This document shows, piece after piece, positions 11,644 to 19,257 of a stretch of DNA of 64,000 nt (position 1 is its first letter; each line of letters opens with the position of its first letter). Made by a program: the position numbers and the translations under genes. The DNA is from Pseudolabrys sp. (GTDB lineage Bacteria; Pseudomonadota; Alphaproteobacteria; Rhizobiales; Xanthobacteraceae): the NCBI GenBank assembly GCA_017849615.1, contig JAFIGS010000011.1, forward strand, positions 1 through 64,000. Direction: 5' to 3'. Under the pieces are notes generated by a model that was given only the letters and a program-made list of their open reading frames with translations, was not told the DNA's origin and did no database searches.

Positions 11644-12702
11644 TTAACCGAAGGGGTTGGACTTCGCGAGACGCGCGTTGGCCTCCTGCGCGACAGACAG
11701 ATCGAACAACTGCTCCTTGGTCACGGAACCGGTCACCAGCTTCATGGTGTCGGTCCAGAATTTGCCCTGCGCCATGCAGGAGTCGACATTCGGCATGCCG
11801 TCTTCGTTGAACCAGGTCCACTTCGGCGCGGCCGATTCGATCAGCGGCGGCGGCACCTTGGTCGCTTCCGACACGATCTTGATGATCGCCGGATCCTTGT
11901 CCGCGGCACCCTTGTTGAACAGGCGGCCGGCATAAGTGTGCGCCATGGCGAAACGGATCGCCGCCGACTTGTTCTCGGTGAGATATTTCGACGACATGGC
12001 CCAGCAGGCGAGTTGCGTATTCGGCTCGATGTCATAGCCGCCGCAGATCAGCTTGCCGGCGTTGTTCTTCTCGACCAGGAAGCCGAGCGGCAGCGGAATG
12101 TTCGCAATGTCGGTCTGGCCCGCGCCCATCGACTTCACGATATCCGGATAGCTGAGGCCGGTGTTCCACGTCACATCGGTGCGCGGATCGAGACCCGCCT
12201 TTTGCGCGGCGCGGCCGAGCAGATACTGGTCGATGCCGCCGGGCGCCTGCAACGACACGCGCTTGCCTTTCATCAGCGCGAATTTGTCGGCGCCGGTCAG
12301 GCCGGCCTTCACCATCTCGTTGCTGGCGGCAATCGCCATCGAGCCGGAGCCCGGTTTTTCCGAACCGCGGTCGAGAACGAGCTTGTACGGCGCGTTCTTG
12401 GCGACAGCGTTGAACAGGCCGGCGCTCAATGTCGAAACCGCGGTGTCGAGTTCGCCGGCAACCAGCGCCGGAATGGCCAGCACGCCGTCGGTGAAATAAA
12501 CCAGCTCGACGTCGAGATTGACCTTTTCAAACAGGCCCATCGCCTTGGCGACGAAAATCGGCCCCGATGAAATCAGCGGCACGACGCCGATGCGGATCTT
12601 GACCTTCGGCTCCTGCGCAAACGATTTCCGCGCGCCGAACGCACCAGCGACGCCAAGGGCGGCTGCGCCCTGCAACAGGTTTCTGCGATTGAGGCTCGAC
12701 AT
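11644..12702 (-). CDS. ABC importer periplasmic binding protein (NMT1/SsuA-like)
   Basis: About 352 residues. It starts with a twin-arginine-type export signal (SLNRRNLLQGAAALGVAGAF), so the protein may be folded before export. The body begins VKIRIGVVPLISSGPIFVAKAMGLFEK, typical of NMT1/THI5-like and SsuA-like binding proteins. Substrate unknown; no thiamine riboswitch or sulfonate enzymes lie nearby. The ATG at 12702 has GGAG eight bases upstream; an in-frame ATG at 12729 lacks such a site. The gene is divergent from a MarR regulator across a 125-bp region with a perfect palindrome, so it is probably controlled by that regulator. Confidence 0.92.
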   Translation of the reverse strand: MSSLNRRNLLQGAAALGVAGAFGARKSFAQEPKVKIRIGVVPLISSGPIFVAKAMGLFEKVNLDVELVYFTDGVLAIPALVAGELDTAVSTLSAGLFNAVAKNAPYKLVLDRGSEKPGSGSMAIAASNEMVKAGLTGADKFALMKGKRVSLQAPGGIDQYLLGRAAQKAGLDPRTDVTWNTGLSYPDIVKSMGAGQTDIANIPLPLGFLVEKNNAGKLICGGYDIEPNTQLACWAMSSKYLTENKSAAIRFAMAHTYAGRLFNKGAADKDPAIIKIVSEATKVPPPLIESAAPKWTWFNEDGMPNVDSCMAQGKFWTDTMKLVTGSVTKEQLFDLSVAQEANARLAKSNPFG

Positions 12703-12792
12703 GCTGTGCTCCATTTGCAAAGTGCTCATTGAGACTGCTGTTTACTGGGCCGGCGCATTGCGAACTTGACTACCGCAAAGCGTGATGGCGAA

Positions 12793-12812
12793 TTATCTTC
12801 AGGTCAAGATAA
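12793..12812. promoter_or_regulatory. Perfect palindrome, probable MarR-family operator
   Basis: TTATCTT (12793-12799) and AAGATAA (12806-12812) are perfect inverted 7-bp arms around CAGGTC. This is the usual size and symmetry for a MarR dimer site, and it lies 16 bp before the regulator start (12828) and 90 bp before the divergent transporter gene. It probably serves autoregulation and control of the ABC operon. Confidence 0.65.
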
Positions 12813-12827
12813 ATCGGGATGCATGCA

Positions 12828-13412
12828 ATGCACACAAAACAGGCCCCTGCCCTGTTTGCGGCGCGAGATATGATCGACACCTTCAAGGAAGAGTGGTCGT
12901 CCGAGCGGCCCGATCTCGACTTCACCTATCTCGAGACAATCGGCCGTATTCTCCGCGCCTCCGCGCATCTGCGCGAGCACATGGACCAGTGGCTGGCGCC
13001 GTTCGGGCTGACCTGGGAAATGTTCGATCTGGTCGCCTCGCTGCGCCGCTCCGGCGGCCGCGGCGGTATGCGACCGACTGAACTTTATGCAGCCTGCATG
13101 CTGTCGTCGGGGGCCACGACCAACCGGATCGACCGTGCCGAGAAGCTGGACTACGCCGTCCGCAAGCCCGATCCGGACGACGGCCGGGCCACCCGGATCG
13201 CGCTGACGCGTCGCGGCCGGGCTTTGGCCGAGAAGGCGATGACCGAGCATACGGCCCGCGCCGGGGTGATTGCACGCCGCCTCACGCCCTCCGAGCAGGA
13301 GCAACTCGCCGGCCTCCTGCGCAAGCTGCTGCTGTCGTTCGAGACCGAGGATGAAGACGCGGCGCCTGTCCGCAAGGCGGCGACCAACGGGCGCCGCGCC
13401 GCTGCGGGATAG
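12828..13412 (+). CDS. MarR family transcriptional regulator
   Basis: The 194-residue protein has a winged helix-turn-helix (about residues 45-140): WEMFDLVASLRRSGG, then MRPTELYAACMLSSGATTNRIDR as the recognition region, and the DDGRATRIALTRRGRAL wing. A charged Arg/Ala-rich tail follows. It is divergent from the ABC operon and 51 bp upstream of the lyase gene on the same strand, so it may control both. ATG 12828 was preferred over ATG 12819 because of spacing from an upstream GGGA. Confidence 0.92.
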   Translation: MHTKQAPALFAARDMIDTFKEEWSSERPDLDFTYLETIGRILRASAHLREHMDQWLAPFGLTWEMFDLVASLRRSGGRGGMRPTELYAACMLSSGATTNRIDRAEKLDYAVRKPDPDDGRATRIALTRRGRALAEKAMTEHTARAGVIARRLTPSEQEQLAGLLRKLLLSFETEDEDAAPVRKAATNGRRAAAG

Positions 13413-13463
13413 GCCGTTCTGTGCTATGCGCGGACGGGAAGAATGCGCCGGAGCAGTTCAGGC

Positions 13464-14813
13464 ATGCCGTCCAGCTATCTCGATTCCGCGGTTTTCCGCG
13501 ACGTCTTCACCACACCGGCGATGCGGCAGGTCTGGTCGGACGAGAACCGCACCCAGAAATACCTGGATTTCGAGCGGGCGCTGGCGGTGGCGCAGGGCCG
13601 GCTGAAAATCATTCCGCAGGACGCCGCCGACGAGATCGCCCGGCATTGCGTGCTGGCCGAACTCGACATGGCCGGGCTGAAGGAGGCGACCGAGCGCGTC
13701 GGCACGCCGATCATGCCGGTGGTCCAGCAACTGGTGAAGCTGTGCAAGGACAAGCACGGCGAATGGGTGCACTGGGGCGCGACCACGCAGGATGTCATGG
13801 ACACCGCGACCGTGCTGCAGATCGCCGAGTCGCTCGACCTGATCGGCGCCGAGCTCGACGGCATTTGCGACGGGCTCGCCACGCTGGCGAAAAAGTATCG
13901 CGACACGCCGATGGCGGGCCGCTCCTATCTGCAGCAGGCGGTGCCGATCACCTTCGGCTACAAGATTGCGACCGTGCTCGCCGGTTTCGAGCGCCACCGC
14001 GAGCGATTGAAGCAACTCAAGGCGCGCGTGCTGGTCGGCGAATTCGGCGGCGCCGCCGGCACATTGTCGTCGCTCGGCAAAGACGGGCTGAAGTGCCAGG
14101 CCGAGCTGATGAAAGAGCTCAAGCTGACGCCGCCGGCGATCACCTGGCACACGGTGCGCGACAATATCGCCGAGGCCGGCACCTTCCTCGCGCTGGTCAC
14201 TGGCTCATGCGCCAAGCTCGCGCTCGACGTGAAGCTCTTGATGCAGACCGAGATCGAGGAGGCCTATGAGCCGTCGGCGCCCGGCCGCGGCTCGTCATCG
14301 ACCATGCCGCAGAAGCGCAATCCGATTTCGTCGGTCTACATCACCGCGCAGAACGCACTGGTGAAGCAGCATGCCGGCGCGCTGCTCGAATCCATGGTGC
14401 AGGACCATGAGCGCAGCGCCGGCGGCTGGCAGATCGAATGGCTGGTGCTGCCGGAGATCTTCATGCTGGCGGCCGGCGCGCTGGCGCAGACGCGCTTCCT
14501 CGCCGAATGCCTGCAGATCAACGAAAAGAACATGGCGGCGAACCTGACGATCACCAACGGCCTGATCATGTCGGAAGCGGTGATGATGAAGCTGGGCGAC
14601 CGCATGGGCCGCGACCACGCCCATCATCACGTCGCGGCGATCGGCCGCGAGGCCGCCAAATCCGGCCGGCCGCTGATCGATCTGCTCGCCGAGGACAAGG
14701 AGATCGCGCAATACGCCACGCGCCGGGATCTCGAGGCGATGATGGACCCGGCGAACTATCTCGGCGCGGCAGGCGAGATGGTCGATCGCGTGCTCAAGGG
14801 GCGGGAAAAGTGA
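13464..14813 (+). CDS. Fumarate-lyase superfamily enzyme (PurB/PcaB-like)
   Basis: The 449-residue protein has the superfamily signature SSTMPQKRNP (about residues 277-286), the upstream HWGATTQDVMDT block and the GRSYLQQAVPITFG block of adenylosuccinate lyase/3-carboxymuconate cycloisomerase proteins. It lacks pathway partners for either reaction here, so the substrate is open. Linkage to a RidA-containing ABC operon suggests catabolism of an imported N-compound. Its final 152 bp (14653-14804) are repeated at 15895-16046; the present 3' end appears to have been brought in with the inserted DNA downstream. The reading frame is intact. Confidence 0.9.
   Translation: MPSSYLDSAVFRDVFTTPAMRQVWSDENRTQKYLDFERALAVAQGRLKIIPQDAADEIARHCVLAELDMAGLKEATERVGTPIMPVVQQLVKLCKDKHGEWVHWGATTQDVMDTATVLQIAESLDLIGAELDGICDGLATLAKKYRDTPMAGRSYLQQAVPITFGYKIATVLAGFERHRERLKQLKARVLVGEFGGAAGTLSSLGKDGLKCQAELMKELKLTPPAITWHTVRDNIAEAGTFLALVTGSCAKLALDVKLLMQTEIEEAYEPSAPGRGSSSTMPQKRNPISSVYITAQNALVKQHAGALLESMVQDHERSAGGWQIEWLVLPEIFMLAAGALAQTRFLAECLQINEKNMAANLTITNGLIMSEAVMMKLGDRMGRDHAHHHVAAIGREAAKSGRPLIDLLAEDKEIAQYATRRDLEAMMDPANYLGAAGEMVDRVLKGREK
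14653..14804 (+). repeat. 152-bp direct repeat, copy 1 (3' end of the lyase gene)
   Basis: Aligns without gaps to 15895-16046, with 8 mismatches in 152 bp (about 95% identity). The leftmost 28 bp and the next 38 bp after one mismatch are identical. Confidence 0.95.
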
Positions 14814-15894
14814 AGCTTGACGTACTAGATTTTGAAAGTCGCTAGGCCCGCACTAGGTGCCGGCACGGTTGGAAATACTCGCGCCTCATCAACGCTTTGA
14901 TGCTATCACACGCGGGAAAACCCGGAATTGCCCCCTTGCCACGGCGCAAAAACAAGGCTCATTTATTAGTGTTTCAGTGGGTGTTTCACGATTGTTTCAC
15001 GCACTGGATAACGAAGGCCGCCTCCCCCGGCAAAGGGGTCAGCGGCCTACGGTCCCGTTAAGGGACGACGCCCGCCAAACCGTTTGCCCGGTTTGAGGGG
15101 TGGAAATGGGCCAAGACGGCAATGGCCCCAGTGCGCCGGTGCCCCTTAGGGCATCTGCCGGACGCGCCAACTAGGTACTGATACGGGGCTGGTTTACTTG
15201 ATGGTGGGCCAGCCCCACCGTCTATTCCTAGTACTTCGAAAAGAACTGAGTTTGATTCACTCGACAAGCCTTGAGTTAGCGAATCACCGATCTGCGCGGT
15301 GGAAAAGCGGCTAAAAAATTTGTTGTTAGTCTGTGGACAGCGGCGATTAGGTAAATGACCGATAAGCCGAATCGGCTTCGGGTAGATTTTGAGAGTTTAT
15401 GTAGGAAGGGAACCGTCCTAGTTGCGACGGCAAAGCGAATAAACATATGAGCCATATGCTCGGTGGCGAAGACCTTGAGACATTGATCAAGGCTATGCGA
15501 AATCCAGAAAAATAAAGCGCCAAAGATATCGAGGCTCAGTTTCCCGAGCCTCGACACCCACTCAATCCTAGGAGGGCATACCCCTAGAACCGTAGCTAGC
15601 TAACCAAGGTGGTAGCTTGGTTAGAAGTCGAAGCTTAGTTGCCCCGGCCACGAGCGAAAGTGTTCACAAACGCTTTCGAGACGACCAAAGCGCGTTCGCA
15701 CATAAGCGCAAACATGCACAAGCTTCGTTCTCGTTTTGGACCTGCCCATAACGAATACCTTTCTCTCATAACGGGGAAGAGCCCCGCCACCCCAGCCTTA
15801 TTGCTCAGGCTGTGTCGACCGTGGGCCGAGCAAAAAATTGCTCGAGAGAGTCAGGTGCCAACTGCAGTTTTAAAATAACCGATTCGAAGTAAGC
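14805..15894. other. Non-coding, hairpin-rich insert of about 1.09 kb
   Basis: This stretch lies between the two 152-bp repeats. It is visibly lower in GC than its surroundings, roughly 43-55% in individual lines against about 65%. It holds no convincing gene: the longest frames (14857-15096, 15276-15557, 15639-15878) lack a ribosome binding site and any recognisable domain. It carries many perfect inverted repeats with short loops, for example 15076-15095, 15185-15216, 15529-15554, 15600-15624 and 15827-15844. It has no tRNA, no integrase, and no terminal inverted repeats. It could be a non-autonomous integrative element, the remnant of a larger island, or a large structured RNA. Confidence 0.7.
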
Positions 15895-16052
15895 CCGCCA
15901 AATCCGGCCGGCCGCTGATCGACCTGCTCGCCGAGGACAAGGAGATCGCGCAATACGCCACCCGCCAGGATCTCGAGGCCATGATGAACCCGGCGAACTA
16001 TCTCGGCGCCGCCGGCGAGATGGTCGATCGGGTGCTCAAGGGGCGGACGTAA
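15895..16052 (+). pseudogene. Orphan 3' end of the lyase gene (repeat copy 2)
   Basis: Encodes the last 50 or so residues of the lyase in an intact frame to the stop at 16050-16052, without a start. Its end overlaps the 3' end of the convergent MFS gene (stop at 16036) by 17 bp, which suggests that this copy, not copy 1, occupies the ancestral position. Codon differences from copy 1 are mostly synonymous, as expected if both ends evolved in working genes before the insertion. Confidence 0.85.
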
Positions 16053-17310
16053 CCGGCATCGTCCGCGCGATCAGCGAGGCGACGATCAGGGTCGCGACGC
16101 CGATGCCGGCGAACAGCATCGGCAATGTCGCGCCGACGTGCTGCAGCAGCGCCACCAACACCGTGCCGCCGGTCATGAAGGCGGCGTTGAGCACATTCAC
16201 CGCGGCGACCGTGCGCGCGCGATAATCCCTGCTCGACCACGCCTGCACCGCGGCGAAAGACGGCACGATGAACAGGCCGCCGGCGATGGCGAGACCGGCC
16301 AGATCGACGGCGACGCGAATGCCGAGCGCGGTCGAGAACACCTCTCCCGGCGTCTGCCCCGCCGCATGAGCGACTTCGCCGAAGGTGGCGAGGCCGAGAT
16401 CGCCGGCGAAGACGCCGAGCAGCAGCGCGCCATAGAGCGTGATCTTCAGCACGATGCGGCCGCGCGCCAGCACGGCGGCGAGCCCCGAGCCGATACCCAC
16501 CGCGATGGAGAACAGCGCGAGATAAGCCGTCACCGTATCCTCGTTGCCGCCGATCAGGGTCTTGATCAGAGGCGGCAGCAGCGACAGCACGACGATGCCG
16601 ACCAGCCAGAACCAGCTCGTCACCAGCGCGCCCCACCACAGCCGCGCATCGGAGCGCAGGTGGCGCAGCATCGCCACCGTCGAGCGCGCGATGTTGCGCG
16701 TGACGGTCAGATGCGGCGCGCCCTCGCCGCTCGGCGGAATACGCAAGGCCGCCAGCCAGCACGACAGCGCAAAGCCGATGACCAGCACGCCGAAGGTGGC
16801 GGCGCCGCCGCGATGCGCGGCAATGCCGCCGACGATGGTGCCGGTGAGAATGGCGATGAAGGTCGCGCCCTCGATCAGCGCATTGGCCGCCGGCAATTTC
16901 TCCGGCGGCTGATGATCCGGCAGGATGCCGTATTTGATCGGCCCGAACAGCGCGGCGATGACGCCGAACAGGCCGAGCGCCACGAACATGATGACGACCG
17001 ACTTCTGCATGTGGCCGTAGAGCGCGAGGCAGGCGATGAAGATCTCGACGAATTTCAGCCATTGCGCGACCCGCGCCTTGTCGTGGCGGTCGGCGATTTC
17101 GCCGCCGAGGCCGGACAGAAAGAAATAGGGCGCGATGAACACGGCGCCGGCCAAGGTGATCAGCACCTCCGCCTGGCCCGACGTCACATCGGCGCCGAAC
17201 AGGATGAGGAAGACCAGCGAGGTCTTGAGAAAGTTGTCGTTGAACGCGGCGAAGAACTGGCACCAGAACAAGGGTGCGAAGCGGCGCGACAACAGGAGCG
17301 GCGGGGCCAT
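16036..17310 (-). CDS. MFS transporter, LplT-like
   Basis: The 424-residue protein has about 12 hydrophobic segments. FNDNFLKTSLVFLILFG near the N-terminus and PIKYGILPDHQP followed by ANALIEGATFIAILTGT resemble the lysophospholipid flippase LplT and the transporter half of Aas-type fusions. It may therefore move lysophospholipids, but no acyltransferase partner is adjacent. The ATG at 17310 was chosen; a GTG five codons upstream is possible. Its last 17 bp lie inside the orphan lyase 3' end. Confidence 0.9.
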   Translation of the reverse strand: MAPPLLLSRRFAPLFWCQFFAAFNDNFLKTSLVFLILFGADVTSGQAEVLITLAGAVFIAPYFFLSGLGGEIADRHDKARVAQWLKFVEIFIACLALYGHMQKSVVIMFVALGLFGVIAALFGPIKYGILPDHQPPEKLPAANALIEGATFIAILTGTIVGGIAAHRGGAATFGVLVIGFALSCWLAALRIPPSGEGAPHLTVTRNIARSTVAMLRHLRSDARLWWGALVTSWFWLVGIVVLSLLPPLIKTLIGGNEDTVTAYLALFSIAVGIGSGLAAVLARGRIVLKITLYGALLLGVFAGDLGLATFGEVAHAAGQTPGEVFSTALGIRVAVDLAGLAIAGGLFIVPSFAAVQAWSSRDYRARTVAAVNVLNAAFMTGGTVLVALLQHVGATLPMLFAGIGVATLIVASLIARTMPVTSAP

Positions 17311-17392
17311 GCCGCTGCATAGCACGGCGCAGCACAGCGAGCGCCCGCTTTACGTCAGGCGCTCACAGGAATGCGAATTTTGAAGACGGGAT

Positions 17393-17527
17393 TTATCCGC
17401 GGGCGCGGCCGACCCTGCGGCGGCGCCGCGTCTCGGCGGGCTCGAAGTCGCGGTGCTGCAGAATGAGCGCGGCCGTGCCGCAGGCAATGGCGATGGCAAG
17501 CGCAATCGTGAACAGATTGATCCACAT
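17393..17527 (-). CDS. Small single-span membrane protein of 44 residues
   Basis: MWINLFTIALAIAIACGTAA begins a protein with one membrane segment (about residues 3-25) and a strongly basic tail (RRRRRVGRARG). A clear ribosome binding site, GGAGG, sits 7 bases before the ATG at 17527, which decides the start; the longer frame upstream to 17608 has none. The layout resembles small regulatory membrane proteins, but no function is known. It stands alone between the MFS gene and the ATPase pair. Confidence 0.6.
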   Translation of the reverse strand: MWINLFTIALAIAIACGTAALILQHRDFEPAETRRRRRVGRARG

Positions 17528-17670
17528 GGTCTGGCCTCCTTCGCTGGCGGACTTTTGACGCCCCGCCGGGGTTCCGAAAAGCGGCTCTTGAGAACGCACA
17601 GCCGCCAATTCCGTTCCATGCGCTATCAGTCTGGAATCACTGATGAAAATCTAGCCGTTTCGACGCGCCG

Positions 17671-18387
17671 TCACAACCGCAGCGAGGATTGCAGGTCGCC
17701 GAGCAGCACGCGCAGGTCGATCTCGCGCAATTCGGTATAAGTTTTACGCAACCAGCGCTGCAATTCGATATGCGCATCGAGCGGAATATTGCGCGCATTC
17801 GCCAGTTGATCGTCGGCGAAAGAGAACGGCGGTGTCTCGATGAATTTGCGCGACGCGGGCGCCAGCGCCGGCAATCGCAGGATCGCGCCGCTGCGCTCCG
17901 CGGTGGGGAAACGGTCGCGATGCTGCGTCGGCCCGAGCATTTCATTGTGCACCGGCGTCAGCGCCGCGCCCGGAAAGCGCGCGCGCAGGCTTCGATAGGC
18001 CTCGCCCGCGGCCTTGTCCGACGAGATGATGAACAGGATGACCGGCGCGATGGCGCGCTTGTGCGCTTCCTCGACGAAGCCGATGCGATGCGCGATGTCG
18101 AAGAAGGCCGTGAACGTCTCGGCGCCGACATCGACGATCTTGCCGCCGCCTTCCTCGCTCACGAGCCGATCGAACAAGGCCATCTGGCCCTGCACGCCGC
18201 CGATCTGGGCGGCCTGCGTTTCCTCCGGCGCGAATTGCCGCAGGCTTTGCGCGCCCTGGCCGAGATCGAAGGCGCGCGCGCCGCGGCCCTCGTGCTGATG
18301 ATAGCCGATCAGCACCCGCGACAGCAGCGTCTTGCCGACCCGCGGCCGCGGCGACGCGACGATGTAAACGGAATGGCGGAACGACAT
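17671..18387 (-). CDS. ParA/MinD-like P-loop protein with degenerate Walker A
   Basis: The 238-residue protein is a paralogue of the gene just upstream: both share VGKT..SR.L, a following RAFD block, QM..FD.L, a V-D-(V/I)-x-A segment and IGF(V/L)E.A at matching positions. The P-loop reads SPRPRVGKT: the glycines of the deviant ParA motif KGGxGKT are replaced by Pro and Arg, though GKT is kept. ATP binding may be weakened or lost. Its role could be as partner or regulator of the intact ATPase. It starts 111 bp after that gene. Confidence 0.8.
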   Translation of the reverse strand: MSFRHSVYIVASPRPRVGKTLLSRVLIGYHQHEGRGARAFDLGQGAQSLRQFAPEETQAAQIGGVQGQMALFDRLVSEEGGGKIVDVGAETFTAFFDIAHRIGFVEEAHKRAIAPVILFIISSDKAAGEAYRSLRARFPGAALTPVHNEMLGPTQHRDRFPTAERSGAILRLPALAPASRKFIETPPFSFADDQLANARNIPLDAHIELQRWLRKTYTELREIDLRVLLGDLQSSLRL

Positions 18388-18498
18388 CGTCTCTCAGGCC
18401 AAAGGGCTTATCGAATTCAAGTCCAATAAAGACAAACGGCGCTGTCGTCGAGACAAGCGCCGCCCGTGAAGCTTATCGCGTGGAAAGCCGAAACCGAT

Positions 18499-19257
18499 CT
18501 AGCCGGCCACCTGACGGACGTTGCTCTCCGCCTTCGGCGACAACAGATCGACGAGCTTGACCTTGTCGTACTCGGCCCAGACCTGGCCGAGCCAGTGACG
18601 CACATAGCCGCGCAGCACGAACGAATAATTGGCGGACTCGCCCTTGCCGGACTTGTTGGCGACGAACTGCACGAAGGGCACGCTCGCCACTTCGACCTGC
18701 TCGGTCGCCATCTCGTTGAGCTTGGGGATGGTGATTTCCTGCGCGTTCTTGATCTTGTTGAAATAGGAATTGTAGGTCGCCGGATCCCAGTCGAAGAACG
18801 AGGTGTCGTTGATGTGGTTCTTGACCAGGAAGTAGCTGGCGTCGCCGACATAGCGCGCGGTCTCGGCGATCTCCTGCAGCGAGGCGATCGACGGCCCGAG
18901 GATGTGGAAGACCGCGAAGGTGATCTGGCCCTTCTTGGCGGATTCGAGGAAGCCGATGTCGCTCAGCGCCTGCAGCGTCGTGGACAGGAGGCCGGCGCGG
19001 ATGTCGATCACCGTGACCTGCGCCGGCGTCGAGCCGAGCGTATCGAAGATCTTCATCTGGTCGGCGACCGAGTTCACATCGACGATTTCGGTGTGATCGG
19101 GGTGAAAGCGCGTGAGCGTGCCGCGCGGCGTCTCGGTGTCGAAAGCCCGCGTCGGAATGTGGTGCGCGCCGAAATAGTCGAGCAGCGTGCGGGAGACGGT
19201 GGTCTTGCCGACTCCGCCCTTGTCGGCGCCAACGAGTACGACGGCTGGTTTTGCCAT
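18499..19257 (-). CDS. ParA/MinD-like ATPase
   Basis: The 252-residue protein has the deviant Walker A motif KGGVGKTT (about residues 13-20) and an Asp-containing Walker A'-B region (VIDIRAG). ParA-type ATPases position plasmids, chromosomes or other cargo. No ParB gene, parS-like repeat array or partition cargo is visible nearby, so this may be an orphan ParA. The ATG at 19257 was preferred over a GTG at 19266. It forms a tandem pair with the degenerate copy downstream. Confidence 0.88.
   Translation of the reverse strand: MAKPAVVLVGADKGGVGKTTVSRTLLDYFGAHHIPTRAFDTETPRGTLTRFHPDHTEIVDVNSVADQMKIFDTLGSTPAQVTVIDIRAGLLSTTLQALSDIGFLESAKKGQITFAVFHILGPSIASLQEIAETARYVGDASYFLVKNHINDTSFFDWDPATYNSYFNKIKNAQEITIPKLNEMATEQVEVASVPFVQFVANKSGKGESANYSFVLRGYVRHWLGQVWAEYDKVKLVDLLSPKAESNVRQVAG

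Follow-up and report, generated by a model that had tools for sequence, protein, structure and literature searches.

Several described systems show how an element can enter the 3' end of a gene and leave the gene working. In Escherichia coli, the prophage e14 enters icd and supplies the 3' end of the gene, with a region of 163 bp being displaced (PMC6379469), and a further precedent is provided by islands that reconstitute their target gene on entry (PMC12884075). A related kind, the cis-mobilizable element (CIME), is described as having kept attL and attR while the genes for integration and transfer were lost (PMC5704250). In the attP of ICEMlSymR7A, repeated arm-type sites, with the consensus TGKTGGTATC, lie near the core, and the integrase gene is present just inside attL (PMC11963761).

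The window, by which we mean the whole 64,000-nucleotide stretch of Pseudolabrys sp. that was analyzed, contains a locus that recalls features of each of these systems. The 3' end of a lyase gene occurs on both sides of a 1,090-bp insert. As with e14, the insert would have given the gene a new end and displaced the native one, over 152 bp here; unlike e14, which is a prophage with genes of its own and has icd as its target, the insert has a lyase target, a single microgene and no recognized integrase. It resembles a CIME in that putative att repeats are present and no genes for integration or transfer were recognized; CIMEs derive from ICEs or IMEs, whereas the one gene recognized in the insert belongs to a phage and plasmid family. 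As in ICEMlSymR7A, repeated candidate arm-type sites lie near the putative core, although their sequence here is TGTTTCA and the insert lacks the recognized integrase gene seen there. An att-flanked remnant is thus a known kind of element, and this locus is a clean example of an element without its own integrase giving a gene a new end, in a lyase target for which no second occupied site was found. The TGTTTCA array and a 42-residue cargo gene go beyond the first-pass annotation, which had been made from the sequence alone. The features of the locus are as follows.

13443..14813, plus strand: lyase gene of the adenylosuccinate lyase-like family, 456 aa (Lyase_1, ADSL_C); its last part is copy 1 of the repeat
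14653..14804, plus strand: copy 1 of the repeat, candidate attL; the gene end to the right of the core is probably imported
14653..14680, plus strand: candidate crossover core, the 28 identical bp at the left end of the repeat; crossover position putative
14805..15894, no strand: insert proper, 1,090 bp; the unit with one repeat is 1,242 bp
14970..14999, plus strand: three direct TGTTTCA repeats, candidate integrase arm-type sites, a function suggested by two other genomes
15011..15243, plus strand: run of hairpins, strongest on the plus strand (z -5.6 in the 15000-15299 window), of no known family
15621..15749, minus strand: microgene for a 42-aa protein of PHROG 21154, stop codon included (six-frame PHROG scan)
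15758..15767, minus strand: GAGAGAAAGG, a Shine-Dalgarno-like sequence 8 nt before the microgene start; function putative, from sequence
15895..16046, plus strand: copy 2 of the repeat, candidate attR; orphan lyase 3' end that looks native
16036..17325, minus strand: convergent MFS transporter gene, adjoining the native lyase end (ORF list, Pfam)

The repeated lyase 3' end

The lyase gene matches Lyase_1 (E 2.4e-44) and ADSL_C (E 1.4e-21), and its frame is open through copy 1 for the full 456 aa. Positions 14650-14804 align with 15892-16046 without gaps over 155 nt at 94% identity, and within this alignment the 152-bp repeat proper (14653-14804 versus 15895-16046) has eight mismatches, the first at 14681. 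The leftmost 28 bp, 14653-14680, are without mismatch and are bounded by differences at 14652 and 14681. The second copy matches at E 3.4e-63, which rules out chance. An exact 26-mer of the core has no match in the genome contigs collection, from which the present genome is possibly absent. The reading frame of copy 2 is an open orphan of 57 residues whose stop ends at 16052. The alignment thus bears out what the first-pass annotation had claimed of this region, namely an intact lyase frame, a gapless recurrence of the last 152 bp with eight mismatches, and 28 identical bp at the left end. One further claim, a 17-bp overlap between the orphan end and the MFS gene, is correct when the stop codon of the orphan frame is counted (16036-16052), but the repeat itself overlaps by only 11 bp.

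The repeats include the end of the gene and the lyase is left intact, as expected of a site-specific integrative element that uses a gene 3' end. We consider it probable that the locus is a decayed phage- or ICE-like element, which had the lyase 3' end as its attB, lost its integrase and kept both attL and attR. A temperate-phage- or ICE-like element would have integrated into the lyase 3' end, most likely by means of a tyrosine integrase, with the crossover falling within the 28 identical bp. Its attP would have carried about 130 bp of a lyase 3' end, stop codon included, by which the gene would have been kept intact and the native end displaced 1.24 kb downstream. The element would then have lost, presumably by deletion, its integrase and nearly everything else. 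What would remain is attL and attR and, between them, the candidate arm-site array, a stretch rich in hairpins and a single microgene from a family of phages and plasmids.

Two other explanations bear directly on the repeat. A small, integrase-less insert with hairpins might be a transposon or insertion sequence, or a non-autonomous form of one. This is scarcely credible, since none of the 13 inverted repeat pairs of at least 20 nt reported for 12500-18500 joins the ends of the insert, and no transposase was recognized in four ORFs searched against Pfam or in six frames searched against PHROGs. A 152-bp gene end would, moreover, be an unusual target duplication, which counts against such elements. 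The arrangement is known from one assembly, as might be said of an assembly artefact, but the locus lies inside a 503,182-bp contig of a genome that is 99.99% complete with 0.2% contamination, the insert contains a recognizable gene, and the two copies differ at eight sites; we give an artefact almost no weight.

Empty sites in other species and the origin of the two copies

A lyase search of 60 relatives matched 47, and the best 30 of these 47 loci, including the locus itself, were compared. The distance between the lyase and MFS stops is -300 to +190 bp (negative values meaning overlapping frames) in 24 of the 29 relatives' loci and 628 bp in one (G008), while in the remaining four the MFS gene was not found by tblastn. 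One of these four (L013) ends 60 bp past the lyase, and a separate comparison saw 53 bp of the MFS gene there; in another (G019), a longer stretch places the MFS gene 2,871 bp away. At the DNA level, the lyase 3' end has a single match in 28 of the 29 loci, none in one (L028), and a double match in no locus. This spacing, in conjunction with the single 3' ends, implies that empty sites exist. They occur in other species of the genus, the comparison being one of other species rather than of sister strains.

A short orphan frame carrying the 53-residue lyase end is found only in the present genome, both among 43 genomes of the genus (38 with a match) and among 397 genomes of the order (23 with a match). 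Second lyase-end matches in seven other genomes of the genus lie within full-length paralogues. A point against a decayed element is that the arrangement is seen in one genome only, with no second occupied lyase end in either set.

Four genomes in which the MFS gene is distant or missing (G019, G020, G028 and G008) were considered as carriers of islands and set aside, no integrase being seen by eye among their listed ORFs. The gaps of 628 bp (L035, in G008) and 2,871 bp (L032, in G019) belong to other species and occur without a second lyase end, and the gap in G019 contains ORFs resembling glycosyltransferases.

The closest relatives, G004 and G033, agree with each other at four of the eight sites at which the copies differ, and copy 2 carries their base at all four; at the remaining four sites, the two relatives disagree. 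From this, copy 2 looks native, and the view that copy 1 came with the insert is supported. Six of the eight codon differences between the copies are silent, where 76% would be expected to be replacements (P = 0.004 for two or fewer replacements). As the differences are mostly silent, both copies were apparently functional gene ends, each in a separate genome, while they diverged; such a history is predicted if attP carried a gene end and is not predicted by duplication in place.

The bases immediately to the right of copy 2 are unlike those of both closest relatives, so the right junction is an imperfect representation of the ancestral state, a point against the decayed element. This junction also speaks for recombination without a site-specific enzyme, in which a related piece of lyase would have arrived together with unrelated DNA; illegitimate or homologous recombination can duplicate gene ends. 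We nevertheless find such an origin distinctly improbable. The repeat begins abruptly inside the gene and stops at its end with the gene intact, the insert has phage-type features, and the silent-site pattern argues against duplication in place.

Several proposals of the first-pass annotation can be judged from these comparisons. It had suggested looking in relatives for an empty site with one 3' end, and such sites are present in the 24 loci with adjoining or overlapping lyase and MFS genes. It had taken copy 2 to be ancestral and copy 1 to be imported, for which the agreement of copy 2 with the relatives at four of four sites is evidence. Its central idea, that an element integrated at the 3' end of the gene and restored it, is likewise supported by the empty sites and by these four bases, and gains new support from the silent copy differences and the arm-site-like array. 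Other inserts, or an integrase, at this lyase end were also to be sought, and none was found in the 43 genomes of the genus or the 397 of the order.

Content of the insert and the TGTTTCA array

The insert is foreign by composition, with a G+C content in 200-bp windows of 0.465-0.645 within it versus 0.60-0.73 outside. No further copy occurs in the same genome or in 59 other relatives, and none in plasmids or phages. Among 396 other genomes of the order, eight gave matches, all of 21-49 bp and locally re-aligned, and their number is about that expected by chance; one of the eight, G266, led to the TGTTTCA array. A search for other copies of 14805-15894 in the genome and in databases, as had been proposed, thus returns nothing beyond these short matches.

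Neither an integrase nor an excisionase was recognized in the insert when four ORFs were searched against Pfam and six frames against PHROGs, and the same searches gave no integrase remnant, which weighs against the decayed element, and no trace of a transfer gene. The first-pass annotation was accordingly right about the integrase and excisionase, but not in holding that the insert has no cargo gene, since a match to PHROG 21154 (E 1.5e-8) identifies a 42-aa microgene, the only gene recognized there. A 22-aa ORF at 15447-15515 has no phage match and was assigned to no family. The genome as a whole has nine Phage_integrase matches.

The array consists of three direct copies of TGTTTCA. In the form TGTTTCA-N3-6-TGTTTCA-N3-6-TGTTTCA, it is found in three of the 397 genomes of the order, while the reversed control is found in none. 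In one of the other two genomes, G372, it coincides with the 3' end of a fragment matching integrases (PHROG 1, E 1.3e-6 over 90 residues) and adjoins a sequence that, by reading, resembles a tRNA 3' end; the fragment has no Pfam match (77-residue part) and no plasmid or phage match. In the other, G266, the array lies between a phage-tail-like ORF and another tRNA-3'-like sequence, again by reading. ARAGORN reports no tRNA beside the G372 or G266 array. Both arrays appear to lie at the edges of elements. The G372 stretch (L065, 4839-5105), an integrase 3' fragment ending in the array with a tRNA-3'-like neighbour, appears to be a further element remnant in its own right.

Against an arm-site function, viral contigs contain the motif frequently, in many cases within long ORFs (at least 120 stretches, with 80 loci among the matches listed), and because many arrays lie inside long ORFs, proximity of arrays to integrases in viral loci was not used as evidence. 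The exact array forms occur in no viral contig and five times in genome contigs. Three of the five lie, by reading, inside Bacteroidota coding frames, one, which also counts against an arm-site function, lies in a member of the Comamonadaceae before a probable folD (by reading), and another is G266 itself. We infer from its neighbours in the other two genomes that the array represents candidate integrase arm-type sites, the motif also occurring elsewhere.

These features could also belong to a natural miniature element, a non-autonomous unit of about 1.24 kb comprising attP, arm sites and the microgene, which would depend for its movement on an integrase provided in trans by a helper phage or ICE. 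Such a unit would account for the intact state of both repeats and of the 28-bp core, for a microgene that is open with a Shine-Dalgarno-like sequence ahead of it, and for six frames in which no broken phage gene was recognized against PHROGs. It is nevertheless unlikely, if less so than recombination without a site-specific enzyme, as no second copy was found in the genome or in the 59 relatives, and the 396 order genomes gave only the 21-49 bp matches. In addition, a double TGTTTCA ending in C occurs nowhere else in the genome, and hence the genome gave no sign of a resident helper with arms of this type. From the one genome that has the insert, we think a remnant likelier than a unit mobilized in trans. 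If the outside chance of a miniature unit were true, phage or ICE integrases would spread it in trans, and it would be the equivalent of a MITE among site-specific elements.

The PHROG 21154 microgene and RNA folding

Residues 5-35 of the 42-aa protein match positions 15-45 of the 47-position profile of PHROG 21154, a family of which AMBK_50 of Salmonella phage vB_SosS_Oslo is an example. Elsewhere, members occur in phages, plasmids or larger regions, whereas here the microgene is the sole recognized gene of the insert. At E <=1, tblastn finds matches in 6 of 50,697 phage records and 97 of 72,556 plasmid records, many of them weak. A profile of eight sequences finds 26 of the 397 order genomes at E <=0.001, the present one included, although some of the weakest of these matches lie within long frames and are doubtful. 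Among the plasmid matches listed, 35 of 40 have no annotated gene beneath them, in a gene table that is itself incomplete.

Twelve residues are common to all eight aligned sequences. In 20 loci, the invariant residues are encoded by many synonymous codons, including both AGR and CGN for Arg; these loci were chosen by a pattern containing the invariant residues, so that the evidence lies in the variety of codons and not in the invariance. On this ground, PHROG 21154 is taken as a protein-coding family. In 8 of the 15 loci examined, the microgene has a repressor-like gene no more than about 1.3 kb away, five by annotation (cI, HTH proteins or a regulator) and three by Pfam (S24, HTH or IrrE-like proteins), and none was seen in the other seven. 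This suggests that the microgene may be tied to lysogeny or to element maintenance. A literature search for PHROG 21154 by name found nothing, nor did broader searches find anything on the family. A profile search of PDB with the microprotein gave nothing better than E 0.11, and an AlphaFold model of the microprotein alone, one helix over 41 of 42 residues with a mean pLDDT of 67, was not usable.

The insert folds more stably than its dinucleotide shuffles (24 for each strand), with z -6.4 on the plus strand and -5.8 on the minus strand, versus -2.4 to +1.4 for 300-nt windows fully outside it. No Rfam match to the insert is better than E 4.4. A covariance model of the hairpin stretch, built on two identical rows, matched one of 242 other genomes at E 0.001, which was taken as chance, and gave nothing better than E 0.079 in 42 loci; the stretch was accordingly not adopted as an RNA family. 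The roughly six hairpins at 15011-15243 on the plus strand, with no detectable relatives, could be an undescribed element RNA.

In 12 of 19 loci with the microgene, a 250-nt window starting 100 nt before it falls below z -3 on one strand or both. For a set of 24 distinct 78-nt microgene cores from 37 sources, the mean energy is -27.8 kcal/mol. Shuffles in which every residue and the codons of each column are preserved average -23.1 kcal/mol (z -7.1), and shuffling inside each gene gives -24.0 kcal/mol (z -6.5). Nine lyase segments used as a control, which was not perfectly quiet, gave z of -3.6 to +1.6 and -3.8 to +4.1, and the microgene falls below all of them. The microgene mRNA therefore has more structure than its protein and its choice of codons call for (24 distinct cores). 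RNAalifold finds no common structure among the cores, and Rfam finds no family here; in the other loci, it reports known tRNAs, one group II intron over the cut-off and otherwise weak matches.

PHROG 21154, represented by the microgene of the insert and by loci L193-L200 and L202-L217, is a widespread microprotein family, often unannotated, and the folding of its mRNA makes it a testable candidate for an RNA-regulated phage or plasmid gene. Were the miniature unit real, the microgene would be a widespread regulator acting as both structured RNA and peptide. Two other loci add minor observations. In G154 (L236, 5019-5094 and 5463-5564), an intact tRNA-Thr gene is followed, about 370 bp beyond its 3' end, by a relative of the microgene and, further in, by a resolvase gene, possibly the edge of an island. 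In G172 (L207), one strand carries two differing copies of the microgene, separated by about 420 bp.
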